From Gonapodya sp. JEL0774 (taxonomy: Eukaryota; Monoblepharomycota; Monoblepharidomycetes; Monoblepharidales; Gonapodyaceae): DNA of 64,000 nucleotides. The translations under genes and the position numbers were made by a program. The first letter of the stretch is position 1. Every line of letters begins with the position of its first letter. Under the pieces are notes generated by a model, which saw nothing but the letters and a program-made list of their open reading frames with translations, did not search any database and was not told the origin of the DNA. Of this stretch, positions 48,747-59,091 are shown piece by piece. The stretch spans positions 558,001 to 622,000 of the forward strand of contig JADIIX010000001.1 in the NCBI GenBank assembly GCA_027604505.1, written 5' to 3'.

Positions 48747-51044
48747 TCATTCATTCAGCTCTGTCTCCCCGCCATCGTCGCCACCATTGTGCTCCCCGCC
48801 ACCTCCCCCCAAGGCTCCTTGACTTTGACCCATTACCCGCCACCCACCAGCTGCGGCAATCGCTGCTCTTCGTACTCTCTCTTTGTGCCTCTTCGCGCGC
48901 ACATGTTGCTCCCACGCGACCTTTCCGACCAACACCTTTGGGCCGCCGTCATTGTCTTTACAAACCTCGCACTCCCGCGTCGCGAACGCAGGGTCCGAAA
49001 TGGGAAGGCTGTTGGTCGAGGGTGATAACAGATTCGTGGCATCTGGGTGGATGCTTGCAGGCGGAGGAAGGACTTTATTATAGAGGAAGGCTGAGGGAGA
49101 GGAAGAATTGTGACTGGCAAAACGAAGAAAGATGATTGTAAAATCAATGTTCACCGTGCATGATGTGAAGAGCGGGTTGGAGAACTCGTTCAGTCCACTT
49201 CGAAAGGTCTTCACATAGGAACACATGAAGGAAGCCACGACCAGTGCGAAGTACCCATTTCAATTACATAACCGCTCTAAAGTGTGTGAGATCGACTCAC
49301 CCGACGCGTCCAATACATAAGCGGCAGCTTTTACTTCACCATCCCCATTTGGTTCCACCTCAATCTCCGGCGAATCCCCACCTCTCCTCAACTGCCAAGC
49401 GAGTTTATTTCTAATCCACGTCACTTGCTGCCTGGCGTACTGCCGCGTAGCTCTCATCATGGTTTCCATTCCCTCTTGCCACAGTTTGTGAGCTTCCTCG
49501 GACGGCTCTCGTGTGCCATCTCCTACAGGTGAGCAACCACGATCCATCTCCACAGCATCTAGATAAGCAGAAAATTCCTTGTATCCAATGGCCTGAAAGA
49601 CGCCCCTCGTGTAGTCCGGTTCGGCCGGTCGGGGATATCGAGTTCTCGACCACGCCCGAACCTCACGGATCTCGTCTAGCAACCCCATGCGCACCATGCT
49701 GGAGCACCGAGAATCAAGACGGGAATCTAGATTGGCTGACGGGGCGTGAAGCCAGAACAGAAGAGTAGGGTGGCTATTCATCAGTTTGCAAAGGTTGTAT
49801 GTGATATATGACGAATTACGGTCAGATTGGCTTGCAAGTTGAAGGCAATGACCCTTACCGGAGTGTGGTGCACGTAGAGGAGATGGATCTCTGTTCGGCA
49901 AGGATGGCGGAATGTTGGCGTCCGGTTTGAAGCCAGATCTGGGGGAAAGATAATTGAATGGATATCATGACGGAGAACTCCACTTTCATGTGCCCATCGA
50001 CTGATCCAACTTTTTACCTTGCTGAATTCCAGGCACGCTCCCCATAACCCCTCCACTTATCCCTAACTGCACTCACCTCCAAACTTCGTTTTACTCTTCT
50101 CTCGTCGTTGGGATGGCGTACAGCTGCCATCCTGGGATCTACTTGCTTGAGAAGGTCATGTAGAAGGCGAGACGTTGACATCATTGATGCCAGCTTCGGT
50201 GCGGAGTTCGGGGGTTGTGACCTCACAACGGTTCTGTCGGGTGGTTGTTGCGTCAGAAGAGCCGTTCTGACACGGGCGACGAGATCTGCATCACGCGGAT
50301 CATGCGCAGCTGAGACAAAGTCTGAAGAGGCTATAGAGCCGACGACATCATCGTCCGGGTCGACAGCGTCAGGTGTGGTAGGGCCACTTGTTTCACTGGC
50401 CAGGGTCCCCTCCCACAACAAAGATTGGACATAGTAGTTAGTGCCCCCAACGATTATAGGTAGGGTATTTTGGGCGTGAAACTTCGAAATCTGATCGACG
50501 GAATGCATTGGAGAGCAGTGGGATTGGAAAACCAAGTTCACGATTCTTTGGTGGTTTGAGTTCATATACCCTCGTTCTCCGGACTTACAGAAAACAACAA
50601 AGCCTCACCAAATCTTGTGATTCGTCCACAAAGTCCTTGACGCTGTACTCCTCCTCCATATTGAGAAATCCGATCAAATGGTGGGGTACACCTTTGGCCT
50701 CCTCGGGCGTGACCTTATTGGTCGCGATGGGTAGGCCCTTGTACACCTGCATTGAATCTGCGGAGATAATTTCGGCGGATGACGGGAAGCGTGGTTGTGC
50801 AGCGTTCTGAGAAGTTGCGGAGGTTGTGGAGAACGGGGGTAAGGAGTTTCTGACTGCAAGAGCCAGGTCTATTGCGAGCTGGGACTTTCCTACAAGAGTG
50901 GAAGAATGCGACTCGGCAAATAGCAAGAAAGTGGAAAACACAGACGCGAGAGTATCCAATGATGGGGATGTGATGATGCAGCAACCCACCGACACCAGTT
51001 GTCCCGACGATTGCAATGATGGGTAGTTTGCCAGGAAGTGACAT
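48747..51044 (-). CDS. MOD5: tRNA dimethylallyltransferase Mod5/TRIT1
   Basis: Adds the isopentenyl group to A37 of tRNAs reading UNN codons. Exons: 50990-51044, 50609-50889, 50018-50490, 49301-49938, 49155-49208, 48747-49072; every phase closes, 608 aa. The P-loop [15 protein letters not shown] is joined across the first intron. Then come [47 protein letters not shown] and [14 protein letters not shown]. The C-terminus has the matrin-type C2H2 finger of eukaryotic enzymes (CEVC ... [10 protein letters not shown]). An Asp/Pro-rich insert sits in the middle. The predicted intron at 49774-49858 does not keep frame, so that segment is kept as coding. Confidence 0.92.
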
Positions 51045-52039: not shown

Positions 52040-54151
52040 ATGGCCCGAGATTCTGGTCCAAACCTTTCGAGAACAGCAATGTACGGCCAAAACCAGTTTC
52101 AAAATCAACAACAGCAGCAGCAATGGACACAGCAAATGTTCAATCCCCAACAAGCGCAGAACAGCTGGAACCCTCAATCCGCGAATCAGCTTTACACGCA
52201 AGCGAATCCCTCGCAACTCCAGCCAGTGGCCATGTACCAGACGCAGCCTCAAAACCAGCTCTACCAACAGCAGTTCCAGCAACCACAACAACAGCAACCC
52301 ACGCCAGCATTCGCGGTCAATGCTTCGGCATGGACAACTGCTGGACACAGCTCGCTCGCAGGAACACCGCAGCCTTCTTTTGGACAGGGTAGTGGTGGTG
52401 GAAGTCCCGCAATGCCTCGTATGGCTGGTGCTGGAGGAGCGCAGAAGGAAACATCAACCGGAATTGGGTTAGTACCCCTATTGCTATTGATTCACATCCT
52501 CTGTTACCCTTCATCTCCTGTAAAACCCAACCCTCTGCGATCGTGTTGATGTCTTTCCATGTGCCAGTCGACCCGCGTACCGATGGGCCTTGTCTGGTCA
52601 GCAACAAATGCAGCCTTGGGTGCCACCAATGCAAATCCTCTATCAGGAGGCTGGTGTAACGATTGCTGGAACGGTGAGGATCTACGAATAACCAGTGTCC
52701 CTAACGATGGGACCTTACTAATCGAGGAGAAGTTTGGGGGGAATGACACGGACACAGAGGACTCGGTTGGCTGCCAGCACAAAACTATTGCATTGGAGAG
52801 GAGTAAATCATTGACTCGTCACTCTGCTGAGCAACGTCAACAGAAAACGTTGACTCGTTGCTCTGCTGAGCAACGTTAACCGAAAACACTTCGTGGAATG
52901 GCGAGCAATCCAGCTTACCTAATCTCTCCTCTGAGCTTGTGCCCGATTCTCCTCCCACTTAAGTTCGCGCGGCGCGATGGCCGAATGCTTCTCGAACTCA
53001 TAATCCAGAATCAAACGTCGCAAGGCATGCGGGACCTCTCGGTCTCATTTGGCCGCAATACGTTTACCTTGGGACCTGCCACGCCAAAGCTGTCGGTCAT
53101 GGGAGTGCCGCAAGGAGGTCAAGTTGAAGCGAGTGTGCAACTGCGGTACGTGCGGCGAGCGGGGGCGATGGGGTATTGGAGTAGATGATTTCGAGGAAAC
53201 GGGAGAGGAAGAGGATCGGTGTGTCGTAGGATCATGAATTCGCAAGTGGGAATATGTACATCCCCCCGTGAACTTTGATTACCCTCCTGGAAGTGCAGCG
53301 ACACTGGTAGATTTTATTCTGATCTTTTCCGTGAGGTTCAGAGGCCTTCTGTGACAGACACGGACAGAATTTAACGTCATCTTTCGAAGGAAGAAAGGGA
53401 AGTAAGTTAGCTTGGTGGGGCTGAGCAACAGTTTTCAATGGATTTCAAGCCTGATGGCCCAGACGAGACGATCATTCCAACAAGGCATCTCAAGCGCTTG
53501 AATCCACCATCTTAATCGCATTTCTCCCACTCCCCCCTCCACGCCTTTTCTTGAAATCCATTGTCTGAAGCGTGGACGCCGACACCGCCTCACCCCAGAA
53601 TCCCATTAACCTCATCCCGATTTCCCTCAAGCACTCGTTAACGTCCCACCACTTCAGCGCGTCTATTCCGATCCACGTTCTCTTCACCGAGCAAGGTCTC
53701 ATAGACCAAACCCGATGGCTGAAGCTTTGGACAGAGAGTGGTGCCAGCGAGTGGGCGTGTCCTTTACAGGGAATGAGATTCGAGAGTGTTGACGAGTTAA
53801 GGGGGAGATTAGGGGTAAATAATGTGTTTGTGGTCGCCCAAAGGATAGTAAACGGAATGGTGAGTTGACTGGTTCGCTTCACAATTAAAGGGATGATTGC
53901 TAACCAATCTCATCCCATCCTTGACCATTTTCTCTTTCTCTCCTCGCCGTCCATCTTTCCAGCATTACTTCTACGTCTCTATGGCACTCCCAAACCACCC
54001 TGCCACGATCTTTGTAGCTGAAATATCACTTGATGAGCAGCTCGCAAATGGGAAATTGTCAGTAAAAATTCCAGGAAAGACTACCGAGGAAGCCGGAGAG
54101 CTGGCTGGACCTGTGTTTGAGAGTGTGGGGAGGATGATGCTGGGGCAGTAG
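52040..54151 (+). CDS. Free-standing beta-adaptin appendage (ear) protein
   Basis: Exons: 52040-52467, 52568-52673, 52964-53145, 53571-53859, 53963-54151; all phases close, 397 aa. The N-terminal 140 residues are Gln/Asn-rich (FQNQQQQQQWTQQM), like a beta-adaptin hinge. The sandwich subdomain follows (GVTIAGTFARRDGRMLLELI, then NQTSQGMRDLSVSFGRNTF, LGPATPKL). The platform subdomain comes next (NPINLIPISLKHSL, IPIHVLFTEQG, NNVFVVAQRIVNG, FVAEISLDE). These match the beta1/beta2 appendage that recruits clathrin accessory proteins. There is no adaptin_N trunk and no room for one upstream. Two long introns (290 and 425 nt) interrupt the ear; the first holds a tandem repeat. Confidence 0.75.
52811..52887. 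repeat. Intronic tandem repeat, two 38-nt units
   Basis: Units at 52811-52848 and 52850-52887 (ttgactcg..., period 39) with four mismatches. The second unit contains a perfect hairpin, CGTTGCTC-tgct-GAGCAACG (52856-52875). It sits inside the first long intron of the appendage gene. Confidence 0.65.
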
Positions 54152-54363: not shown

Positions 54364-55386
54364 ATGAGCTACAGAGCCACCGATTCGGACTCGGAATCTG
54401 ACGATGAACGTGAATGGTTCGCATATTTGCAATTCCGCCTTCTTGCATCGAATCAATTGGTAATGTGATTGCTGCGTTGCTCCGTTTTGGTGGCGAACAG
54501 GTCGGTCCGGCGTATCAAGGCGTACGGCTTTGCATCCGCGGGCGATGCTCGCAAACGATATCGTGTGGAGTGGGATCCCTCGGATGGGAAAGTCTGGGAT
54601 GATGTAGGTTGACGGATGAGACTCGACAGTCAGCCGCCGTTATGAATCAATTCAATTCACAATCCTCTCGAACAACATAAAGACATGGGAACCTGCAAGT
54701 GTCTTTACAGATCTTGATTTTTTACGGGACTTCCGGCGCAGATGGGACTCGCGCCTTCTCGCAGGCCTGAGGGCTCGGACGTCTGGATACAAGTGGTACC
54801 GAGTTTCCTGGCGTGATCCCGCTGGCGTCGATGACTGGCAGGATGTGAGTAGGTCTACGTCGGTGATTTTCTTGGGCAGTCGGTTTCATCAGGTCCGACA
54901 TTACGTACTCCACAGACCTGGATGCCAAGAGAAGAACTGGAGGTTCTATATCTCCCTCAACTCGCAGCATTTGACTTTGAATGGGATCGCAGGCAGAGCG
55001 GTGTACTTGTGCCTGTCCCTCCGTCCTCCCTCAACGTCCGCAAGGCAGCGGCCGAGACTTCGTTGTCGGTTCACAAGAAAGCAGCACTTCCCCAATCCAC
55101 CAACGTGCATGCGCCCTCAAACACGATAAAGCGAAAACGTACCGCAAGTGATGACGAAGGCCACGGGCATTCGGCTCGATCCCGTAGGGTTGCTTCTCCT
55201 GAACCGCTGGTGTGGCCTGTTGATGAGTTGAATGAGAGCTTCTCGGACTCTGTATCGTATTCCGTCTCTCGAGGTCCCGAGCGTCACGTTGAAATTCGTG
55301 GTCCCAGTCTCGGCGAACGCGCGGCTGCCGTTATTCGAAGGCTACAGGAGGCTTGCCGGAAACCGGACGACTGGGAACGTCAGTAG
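54364..55386 (+). CDS. Tandem chromodomain-like protein (may be the N-terminus of the RdRP)
   Basis: Exons: 54364-54464, 54501-54603, 54683-54844, 54916-55386; phases close, 278 aa. After an acidic start (SDSESDDEREW) come two chromo-like modules. Module 1 is IKAYGFASAGDARKRYRVEW, then DPSDGKVWDDTWEP. Module 2 is YKWYRVSWRDPAGVDDWQDT then WMPREEL. Both have the (Y/W)-x-V-x-W core, and an intron follows the acidic residue before TW in both, suggesting internal duplication. The C-terminal 130 residues are Ser/Arg-rich. A donor GTCAGT at 55379, seven nt before the stop, would splice in frame to 55470 and join this protein to the RdRP; see findings. Histone-methyl-lysine binding is inference. Confidence 0.65.
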
Positions 55387-55471
55387 GCTTGTCATGTTTT
55401 TCTGAGATATTCAGTTTAGACCCCACTGATTGCTGAGTACTTTCCTTATTTTATTGTTCCTCCGCTCAGTT

Positions 55472-58400
55472 ATGCACCTGTTCTCGCTTGCTCTCCTCTA
55501 TCCTGTACACTCCTACACACATCACACCGCCTCTGCTTCCACTTCTGTCTATGAGCGCCTATCTTCTCTGAGTGCTATCTTAGATGCCGCGCGTAACAAC
55601 CCGGCCGGCCCGTTCGACGCAATTCAAGCTGCCTTCTTGTCAGCCGCACGTTATTCCCACAAACCAAACCGCACCGATGTGAAACTCGCTATTCAGGAAG
55701 CTCTCTCGGCTCCAGCAGGCCCTGAACCCACTGAACCTGCAGAGGCGGCGCCCATCGCATGGGCGGGTTTCCGAGATGCTTGGCTCACCTTGCGCGCACG
55801 TGGCGCAAAAGTGCCTGAGAGTGAGGATTGTACATCAAGCGATGTATTGTTTCCACTAGGAAAGTCTGTGGTGGAGGGGGATGGTGTAAAACACCAGGCG
55901 ACTGTGATCTACGGCGTTTCCGTGTACCCCACCACCAGTTCTTTTGGCAAATCCCCGGCACTAACAGTTGCTATATTGCCGCCAATCGTGCAGGCCCGAG
56001 GCAACCGTCTGCTGAGACTCGTGGGACCAGCTGCTGTTCTACAGGTGTACGTGGATGCCACACCTGCCGGTCAGTCGAATACCACAACTCCAGCCTTAAC
56101 GGACAGGGATGAGCAGGAATACAAAATCTCCACAATTAAGCTGAGACTGGCAGAGCTAGAAGTGGCAGGCGGAGTGTACGAGTATTTGCACTTCAAAGTC
56201 GTTCACGTACGTTACCGAGGCATTTTCATCCAGAAAGGGTGCCCAATCGCTGATTTAGATGCATGAATCTTCTCTTGACACGATGATTGTAGGGTGACAG
56301 GAAGGCGAAGTCTTTGCGGTCGGCGGCGACGGACGTGAGTGGCTGCTTCACACCACAGCACCGTTTTTCACAGATCATTGAAATGGGCAGCATTTACTCT
56401 TTGATGTCTCTCTTACATCCTGCACAATTCTCAGTACGGAATTTTTCTCCTCTCCACCCACCCTGCCCGCTCTCCGCATCTCCCGCCCCTATCTCAACCC
56501 TGGCACATTCTGGCCAACCATATGCCTGCTATCCCCGGCAATCTATCCCAAGCATCAACAAAGTTTCTCTCACGCTTGGATCTCTTCTTGAGCGCTACCC
56601 ACGCTGTGACACTTCCTCCGGACACCACCATTATCCACGATCTACCAGACGTGCACCCAACCGGTATTCCGGATGAAGCCATGACAGACGGCGCAGGTCT
56701 GGTGGGACGAAGAACAATGCAGTACGTCTGCACTGCTCTGGGGAAAACCGACATGCTGCCAAATACCATACAGATTCGCTACCGAGGATTCAAGGGGTTA
56801 CTGGTGCTCGACAGAGTGGGTGAATTAGAGTTATTGGGGAGACAGAGAGTGAAAGAGCTGAACGGGAAGATGGTGCGTGGATCTCTGTTTGAAGCATCAA
56901 CGAACAGGCGGGAGAAAGCTTTAGCATCAACTGCAAGCTGATACCATTGTACCTCCTCAGCCTGACATCGCATTTCGCAAGTCAATGTGCAAATATGTAT
57001 CGACTCCGGAGGAGCTTGCCATTCCAGGAACGCTCGAAATCGTTTCTGTGGGTTGTTGCCACATGTAGCTTCGTTTCCTCAGATATTCATTGTCTTCGGC
57101 CCAGTAGATTCCACATGTGAGTCCAGGCATGTTGAATCAACAACTTGTCAATGTCCTGGAACATGGAGGTGTCCGTGAAGATATCTTGCGCACGCTCGTG
57201 GTGAGTTCGCGAATGACTTGATCAAATCATGTCCATCCGAGTAACTCAGCCGCATGGATTACAGGCTAAGGCAACGGACGCACTTTTTGAGACCTTTTTA
57301 TCGCCAAACAAAGTTCTGTCCGCTATTCAAGGGCTCCTCAGTAATCCGAGCTCCGGGGGCAGTTCGTCCAGCGTCCGCCTTGCGCACAACCTCTGCGCCG
57401 GTTTTGACTCTTCGGAGCCATACATGCGCAAGATGCTGGTGGAACACGTCAGGTGGAAGCTATCCCGTCTCTACAGTCAAGCTAGGATCCCAGTTGAAGA
57501 GTCTATCGTGGTCACCATCGTCCCAGCCCCCAAAGGAACTCTCAAAGAGGGTGAGATTATGGTCCAAATTCCAGGGTTTTCCAATGCACTGGCTGGAAAG
57601 GAGGTGGTCGTCATGAAGAATCCTGCAATGCTCGCCACTGATGGCCAGAAGCTCACCGTAGCAGACCTTCGGGACTATCCTCAACTCGCTGGCTATGATG
57701 ATGTGTGTATGATGTCGGTGAGAATTCAGGTTGTCTTTCCTACTTTGCTCTCATGGACGCTGATGCTCCATCCTTCTCTTGCCGAATGGACATCACACAT
57801 TCGGATTTTAAGGTCGAAGGGGATGTTCGCGAAGCATCACGGATTGCTGGTGGAGACTATGACGGCGATAAAGTGATGGTTATATGGCACAAGCCGATCG
57901 TGGATGCGTTTCACAGCAGCAGAACGGTTCCCAAAGTTCCTGCTGAAGTTGAAGAAGCTTTCACTCGCACCAAAGACACCGTTGCTCAAGTAACACAACG
58001 AAATGCTGGCGAGCGCTACGGACGGCCTCTATTGGCACGGGGTCTCCAAGAATGGTCCAAAGCCAGCTCCTCCAAAACTGGATGGTACAGCTTGTTATGG
58101 GCGGCGGCTGTCGATAAATGGGGAATGGAGAGTCCTAATGCTGTTCGGTATGCGCACATTGCCACTCGGTGAGTTTGTGTGCTCGTCCATATTTTTCCCC
58201 AGTCATAATTCGTCTGTTCCTCATAGGCTGCTGGACGCAAGAAAGAACGGCGAAACTCTGGATCCCGAGATCGATAAGATCCATCGCCAGTCGTATTTGC
58301 AGCAACTTGGCGGGCAGCCACCTGCCTGGTGGAAAGCCGATGGCATTACCGTCCGAAAACCTGTTCAAAGGGTTCCAAAGTTCGCCCGATTTCTTCACGA

Positions 58401-59091
58401 ACTCACTTCGAGCTCCGATAAGGTGCTAGAAGACAAGGTTGCTACACTTGAGGAAGCAAAACCGCAACCAGAGATCTGCGAGTACTTTTCGAACGACGAC
58501 CGCCTGTTCACTGGTGATCGCGTCTGGGCCCATGATATGAAGCTTCTTAAGGACGCACTCTTTGGAGAGGAACTCCCACTTTGGACCTCATACTGGAAAG
58601 AGGGGCTTGTCCAAAAAGGGCTCCCAGCGCTCCCTTCAAATCAAGCTCCAACCGCTGAAGATAATCCCGAACTCATCTCTAAACGCAATGCCTTACTCGC
58701 TCTGCCCGGGCGAGACGCGGTTCTGGCACAGTTTCGCAACTTTTTCGAAAGCAAACCTGCGGAAAGCGACCTTCAATCGCCTGCCCTTCGCGGCACAGAT
58801 GGGCGTCAGCGACTACTCAAGCTCAAAGCAGCTCTCGCATACAAACATACGAAAAGCAAGTTTGTGTGGGATGTTTGCGCGCATGAGCTCCGGTCCATTG
58901 TTTCCGCGGCGACAGCGGGTCTAGAAATGCACGTGGCTGCCTCATTTGTCCCTTATATGCGGTTCCGCAGTGCTCCAACAGGAGCAGTGAGCGTGGCTGG
59001 GGGAGATTCTGCCGGCGCTGCTGCCCTAGAGCAAGAGGCAGAGTTGGATTTAAGTGGTATTGATTGGGCTATTGATGACATGGACGTTTGA
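55472..59091 (+). CDS. Eukaryotic RNA-dependent RNA polymerase (QDE-1/RDR family)
   Basis: Makes double-stranded RNA for small-RNA silencing. Exons: 55472-56206, 56293-56334, 56435-56872, 56961-57047, 57108-57200, 57265-57717, 57813-58168, 58227-59091; every phase closes, 1022 aa from ATG 55472 (MHLFSLALL). Family features in order: GVSVYPTT with NRLLRLVG, GGVYEYLHFK, MTDGAGLVGRRTMQ (the DGxG motif), NTIQIRYRGFKGLL, RKSMCKYVSTPEELAIPGTL with EIVS, GMLNQQLV. Then SQARIPVEES, GEIMVQIPG, KNPAM and the catalytic AGGDYDGDKVMVIW. The DYDGD motif carries the three metal-binding Asp. The C-terminal palm and neck region follow to WAIDDMDV. The N-terminal 20 residues are hydrophobic, and the ATG lies just after a good acceptor, so the protein may begin in the chromodomain gene. 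Confidence 0.9.

Follow-up and report, generated by a model that had tools for sequence, protein, structure and literature searches.

A probable single gene of Gonapodya sp. JEL0774 predicted to join a tandem chromodomain to a QDE-1-type RNA-dependent RNA polymerase

In fission yeast, according to one account (PMC3380556), the RNA-induced transcriptional silencing complex (RITS) binds histone H3 methylated at lysine 9 (H3K9me) via Chp1 and recruits the RNA-directed RNA polymerase complex (RDRC), which makes double-stranded RNA (dsRNA). There, separate complexes connect H3K9 methylation with dsRNA synthesis, and the polymerase complex is described as only loosely tied to chromatin (PMC3380556). 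We report here on a gene of Gonapodya sp. JEL0774, a Monoblepharidomycete (zoosporic fungus), at positions 54364-59091 of a 64,000-nucleotide stretch of DNA that was analysed as a whole and is called the window below (contig C1, 558001-622000, in an assembly of 25.0 Mb and 381 contigs). Yeast has both activities in one pathway, H3K9me reading in RITS (Chp1) and RNA-dependent RNA polymerase (RdRP) activity in RDRC (Rdp1), but divides them between separate complexes, whereas in Gonapodya they would be combined in one predicted polypeptide with a tandem chromodomain at its N-terminus and an RdRP behind it.

Each part of this protein has described relatives. The RdRP half resembles the QDE-1-type enzyme of Neurospora (PF05183; structure 2j7n) in its sequence match and its GGDYDGD motif. 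Unlike QDE-1-type enzymes, the window gene adds the N-terminal tandem chromodomain, which was not detected at the genome's three other RdRP loci. The best solved relatives of the chromodomain modules by profile are the chromodomains of CDY/CDYL, MPP8, Clr4, SUV39H1 and HP1, and none of the structures matched is named as an RdRP; compared with them, the window modules are tandem, have a longer loop before DTWEP and have an incomplete aromatic cage. Closer to hand, two stand-alone proteins of the same genome, coded on contigs C41 (L032 3572-5317, minus strand) and C4 (L026 597-3030, minus strand), contain the same tandem modules and share introns with the window gene, but lack an RdRP and end in a common C-terminal motif, TLIRKWTG[LI][AE]Y[VL]W, that is absent from the window protein. 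Ceratobasidium P0003 is a fungal RdRP with extra Pfam domains (PF13086, PF13087 and others, the two named being presumably helicase families), and PF00385 is not in its precomputed list. In Cryptococcus, the chromodomain protein Cdp1 is coded by a separate gene, CDP1 (CNAG_03734), which one table of the source enters among genes missing from C. deuterogattii, a species deficient in RNA interference (RNAi), and the last column of its row reads 'unknown' (PMC4778953). Titles and abstract openings among the matches listed from the open-licence PMC literature describe no chromodomain-RdRP fusion. The predicted Gonapodya protein combines known parts in a new architecture, observed here in a single genome.

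The question of whether the two halves belong together turns on a single intron of 91 nt at 55379-55469, on the forward strand and in phase 1. An earlier note, made from the letters of the window, had proposed a chromodomain-RdRP fusion across this junction intron, and its reading of the local sequence is borne out. The chromodomain open reading frame (ORF) ends at 55386 (TAG at 55384-55386), the RdRP frame opens at ATG 55472 and stays open to the stop at 59089-59091, and 85 nt separate the two. The donor GTCAGT begins at 55379, CTCAG ends at 55469, and splicing between them joins the coding sequence in frame.

The case for a single gene comes from the paralogs. The genome holds at least four RdRP loci, on contigs C1 (the window), C3, C21 and C58, and the RdRP genes on C3 and C21 share the N-terminal segment of the window gene. 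The junction reads EIRGPSLGERAAAVIRRLQEACRKPDDWE/L/MHLFSLALLYPVH in the window (...DDWE/L/MHLF), KIHVPHFGVVAAAMMNRMRSRCQTPRQED/A/VAHLEFCLLRHVV in C3 (...RQED/A/VAHL) and ILHVPRLGKAMTMEMKSLMQACETRGEMD/A/VHLLHITLLRHLQ in C21 (...GEMD/A/VHLL), the residue created by splicing being L in the window and Ala in the other two. In all three the intron lies at the same aligned position and in phase 1 (55379-55469 in the window, L028 6364-6441 in C3 and L029 3845-3931 in C21). Ungapped scores over the 29 residues before the junction are 43 for window and C3, 28 for window and C21 and 40 for C3 and C21, and none of 20,000 shuffles reaches any of them. When the C3 and C21 segments were summed into a profile and scanned against 223,609 stop-free 29-mers from both strands of 261 kb, the top match other than the sources themselves began at 55291, with a score of 71 against 48 for the runner-up. 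The junction intron of C3 is predicted by the gene finder without homology (donor at the 55th and acceptor at the 26th percentile), and its presence there strengthens the case for fusion. A reading in which the C3 segment lay in one unbroken exon was rejected, since the segment is not contiguous and is interrupted by this intron.

Since C3 and C21 share both the N-terminal segment and the intron, the final exon of what would otherwise be a chromodomain gene is an exon of an RdRP gene; the chromodomain ORF, in other words, is predicted to end in a piece of RdRP, the conserved segment at 55291-55378. The exon in question (54916-55378) also codes the second half of chromodomain module 2, which ties the chromodomain exons to the RdRP. 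Because three paralogs share the position and phase of the junction intron with homologous coding residues on each side, 54364-59091 is very probably one gene, as the earlier note had suggested, and the origin of the junction intron appears to precede that of the paralogs.

Splice signals and gene prediction contribute less. The gene finder was self-trained on 75 genes and 346 introns in the same 261 kb, which include the window, with costs for gene starts and stops that had been chosen by hand. Against these 346 predicted introns (median 75 nt), the junction donor stands at the 28th and the acceptor at the 75th percentile, and GTCAGT donors occur in 6, the junction's included. The finder and the deposited annotation each yield a single gene. 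Deleting the junction acceptor costs 9.64 nats, which ranks fifth among 55 introns tested in plus-strand window genes with at least three exons (4 of the 54 others cost more).

Several observations weigh against a single gene. The finder over-fuses, wrongly joining 97 of 600 artificial gene pairs at 85-nt spacing, so that little weight attaches to an in-frame intron taken by itself; its one-gene vote is weak for the same reason and because the cost of 9.64 nats depends on the hand-set start and stop costs. A run retrained from a flat start also joined part of the upstream gene, which again indicates over-fusion. In a looser test of the homology, in which 40 tail residues were aligned locally to the whole C3 model, 6 of 2000 shuffles equalled the score. 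For C21 it is homology that places the intron, since the donor there is poor (1.2 percentile) and the gene begins at a later ATG in the finder's model. A genome search with the chromodomain half found no chromodomain at C3 or C21, so that perhaps the C1 copy alone carries the fusion, and the ortholog model of G. prolifera JEL478 (M427DRAFT_457059, 727 aa, annotated from an internal Met) is without the chromodomain region.

The N-terminal half contains two modules, module 1 at 54501-54770 (right edge approximate; EWSVRRIKAYGF..KRYRVEWDPSDGKVWDDTWEPASVFTDLDFLRDFRRRW) and the chromodomain-like module 2 at 54771-55000 (edges approximate; GLRARTSGYKWYRVSWRDPAGVDDWQDTWMPREELEVLYLPQLAAFDFEW), which are 36% identical as aligned. 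A two-row profile searched against PDB gave 12 matches at E<=10 (best 0.016), of which 11 are chromodomains (CDY1, two of CDYL, three of MPP8, Clr4, three of CBX1/MoMOD1 and SUV39H1) and one is a viral coat protein; the same profile reversed, as a control, gave 0 matches. With a three-row profile, ranks 1-9 of 15 were chromodomains (CDYL 0.0011, SUV39H1 0.0047, Clr4 0.005), and ranks 10-15 were EOGT, three DNMT1 entries, mL88 and a capsid protein. The profile matches are individually weak (best E 0.0011) and fall mostly on H3K9me-reader chromodomains. Profile-profile comparison with nine chromodomain stretches of the same genome gave an E of 7.7e-5 and a probability of 62%.

A genome search with the chromodomain half returned weak relatives on C41 (E 0.0066) and C4 (0.09), the two stand-alone double-chromodomain proteins introduced above. 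The C4 protein, taken as the last 308 aa of its finder model, exceeds the Pfam Chromo cut-off over two stretches (28.7 bits against 25.1), and the C41 protein falls under it at 21.9 bits. An intron in phase 2 before a tryptophan (E/W or D/W) is common to the window gene and C41, and a phase 0 intron at D/TW (DD/TWE) is found in both window modules, both C4 modules and the second module of C41; in C41 module 1 and at the C4 N-terminus the finder models place introns elsewhere. In the window, module 1 is coded by exons 54501-54603 and 54683-54844, which are separated by intron 54604-54682 (DD/TWEP, phase 0, common to C4), and module 2 by exons 54683-54844 and 54916-55378, separated by intron 54845-54915 (D/TW, phase 0, common to C41 and C4). 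Because C41 and C4 share introns with the window gene, C4 exceeds the Pfam cut-off and the profiles match chromodomains, we assign the predicted N-terminal half to a tandem chromodomain that is a member of this genome's double-chromodomain family. The chromodomain call of the earlier note is supported on the same two grounds, profile searches and the gene family. Further chromodomain matches at L011, L014, L015 and L016 look retroelement integrase-like by eye.

Other results count against this assignment. The window modules stay under the Pfam Chromo (PF00385) cut-off, at 15.8-16.2 bits against 25.1 and for module 2 alone, and Pfam Chromo was not reported for the whole protein (P0001) or for the isolated modules. 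A single-sequence PDB search with the chromodomain half gave CDYL at E 0.072 and 0.14, followed by photosystem I subunits at 1.3. AlphaFold models made without an alignment were poor, with predicted local distance difference test (pLDDT) values of 47.8 and 62.4. Three strands and a C-terminal helix make up a chromodomain; the model at 62.4, of low confidence, has the order strand-strand-strand-helix, and no chromodomain appeared among the 50 entries shown by structure comparison.

The aromatic cage was taken as the three positions of HP1/Clr4. In the alignment with Clr4, tryptophans of module 1 fall on cage positions one and two, but its third cage aromatic is out of register, and module 2 lacks the first, which also tells against methyl-lysine reading. 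All three family members have an aromatic residue three positions ahead of the threonine, which C41 module 1 replaces by serine, namely W, W and Y in module 1 and W, F and F in module 2, and this residue could replace the third cage residue. The predicted cage is thus incomplete in the alignment and partly conserved, and module 1 appears the likelier reader of the two.

The RdRP half matches PF05183 at 55976-58335 (E 8e-76, profile positions 8-557 of 582). In PDB it matches QDE-1 (2j7n) at E 4.7e-18 and plant RDR2 at 1.2e-11, and the QDE-1 alignment covers residues 292-659 of the RdRP part, with the catalytic DxDGD loop, GGDYDGD (57849-57869), falling on the same letters of QDE-1. The RdRP half is accordingly predicted to be QDE-1-like, with its catalytic motif intact; G. 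prolifera has a protein at 59% identity. The other RdRP loci vary at their N-termini: the C3 paralog (L028) has a low-complexity stretch of about 500 aa and the C21 paralog (L029) an apparently short one, while the C58 gene (L027 3925-9728) looks by eye more canonical, with SGGDLDGD and an RRM-like start. The finder model at L027 continues into an unrelated-looking C-terminal part and is probably a false fusion by the finder.

Two co-oriented genes 85 nt apart, a chromodomain gene followed by an RdRP gene with ATG 55472 as its start codon, would account for the same letters. The ATG lies two bases past the acceptor, although ATG is the first complete codon after 8 of 349 predicted introns, the junction included, and the finder's joining of artificial pairs (97 of 600) also leaves room for two genes. 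Against this, the homology with RdRP paralogs runs upstream over the junction with the same intron in the same phase, the gap would be below 42 of 43 predicted co-oriented gaps, and the start context is weak, with T at -1 and a rank of 6 of 65 after flat-start retraining. Its ranking as the worst of 75 starts was set aside as partly a self-training effect. We reject the two-gene model, now highly improbable, chiefly on the paralog comparison and not on the vote of an over-fusing finder. Optional retention of the junction intron is a different matter: one gene would then yield either the spliced fusion or a 262-aa double-chromodomain protein ending at 55386, that is, a reader and a reader-polymerase. 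An in-frame TAG five bases past the first base of the donor, where translation would stop if the intron were retained (55384-55386), fits this idea, as do a donor at merely the 28th percentile and the stand-alone proteins of C41 and C4; yet a stop shortly after the donor is ordinary in introns, and the product would end in an RdRP-type segment without the LIRKWTG tail of both stand-alone proteins, and we consider retention improbable. That the fusion is an artefact of assembly or annotation, or that the gene is dead, is scarcely credible. One assembly was examined, but the contig around the locus runs to 673,668 bases, the chromodomain end and the RdRP segment share a single unbroken exon, every exon is open and the catalytic motif is intact.

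A fusion could also be real while its chromodomain modules do not read methyl-lysine and serve instead in protein-protein or RNA binding, for example in recruiting silencing factors or in dimerising the polymerase. The gaps in the cage described above, the lengthened loop of module 1 and a Pfam Chromo score below those of both the C41 and the C4 protein all point this way. Module 1 nevertheless has W at two cage positions, the closest solved structures found by profile belong mostly to methyl-lysine readers, and we regard non-reading modules as rather unlikely.

On the reading that we prefer, a fused gene whose module 1 is a reader, module 1 would bind a methylated histone tail, most likely H3K9me, and hold the polymerase on silent chromatin. 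There the polymerase would copy nascent transcripts into dsRNA, Dicer would cut the dsRNA into small interfering RNAs (siRNAs) for use by Argonaute, and a SUV39/Clr4-type methyltransferase would renew the mark, so that the chromodomain-RdRP chain would tie dsRNA synthesis directly to the mark. Genes for such a loop have candidates in the genome: Piwi-domain matches at C1:515411-516730, Dicer-dimer and RNase III matches on one strand of C258, and consecutive chromo, Pre-SET and SET matches at C110:28798-30168, a SUV39/Clr4-type arrangement. These Argonaute, Dicer and chromo-SET matches make an RNAi-H3K9me pathway possible. We lean slightly toward methyl-histone tethering of the polymerase as the purpose of the fusion. 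From sequence we infer transcription as a fused mRNA, methyl-lysine binding, specificity for the mark, action in the nucleus and the loop itself, and we read the earlier note's labels 'chromatin-reading' and 'for RNA silencing' in the same way. Tentatively, we propose as a possible history that in the Monoblepharidomycete lineage a QDE-1-type RdRP gene acquired the exons of a double-chromodomain gene. Mark reading and dsRNA synthesis in RNAi-directed heterochromatin would thereby have come together in one enzyme, able to attach to methylated histones by itself and to dispense with a bridge like Chp1/RITS.

The fusion could tie an RdRP to silent chromatin without a separate partner protein. If true, this natural single-chain version would isolate the link between H3K9me and dsRNA, raise the question of whether an RdRP tied directly to a histone mark suffices to maintain silencing, and locate a connection of RNAi with chromatin in a fungal lineage that branched off early.

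The complete model of the fused gene has 12 exons, at 54364-54416, 54501-54603, 54683-54844, 54916-55378, 55470-56206, 56293-56334, 56435-56872, 56961-57047, 57108-57200, 57265-57717, 57813-58168 and 58227-59091, all on the forward strand. Exon 1 codes an acidic N-terminus (MSYRATDSDSESDDERE) and is supported by the deposited protein, the finder and the C41 intron position. Intron 1 (54417-54500, 84 nt, phase 2, GTTCGC donor) has the same three supports, lying at the same position and in the same phase in the C41 double-chromodomain gene model, and alternatives of 36 nt (GTGATT) and 60 nt were dropped in its favour. Both the 1299 codons and the 278-residue chromodomain protein of the earlier note depend on the 36-nt intron; with 84 nt the fused protein has 1283 aa. 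A basic, serine-rich linker (IKRKRTASDDEGHGHSARSRR, 55001-55290) lies in one exon with module 2 and precedes the conserved RdRP segment. Exon 5 codes the RdRP N-terminal region, and introns 56207-56292, 56335-56434, 56873-56960, 57048-57107, 57201-57264, 57718-57812 and 58169-58226 lie within the PF05183 span. The last exon, which includes the stop codon, is common to the finder and the deposited protein.

That deposited protein, HDU93_000159, is a 'hypothetical protein' of 1279 aa in which the chromodomain and RdRP parts are already fused (98% identity to our model over 100% coverage), and its precomputed domains consist of the RdRP alone. It departs from the 1283-aa model solely around intron 57048-57107, where EIVSIPHVSPGMLNQQL in the window stands beside EVVALTHVSLANLNQQL in G. 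prolifera, which favours the 1283-aa model; the deposited protein appears to misplace this intron (VGC for IPHVSPG), and G. prolifera backs IPHVSPG. Upstream in the window, the gene at 52040-54151 looks by eye like an adaptor-complex subunit, with unstable finder models, and that at 48747-51044 on the minus strand looks like a tRNA isopentenyltransferase with a zinc-finger-like stretch at its C-terminus.

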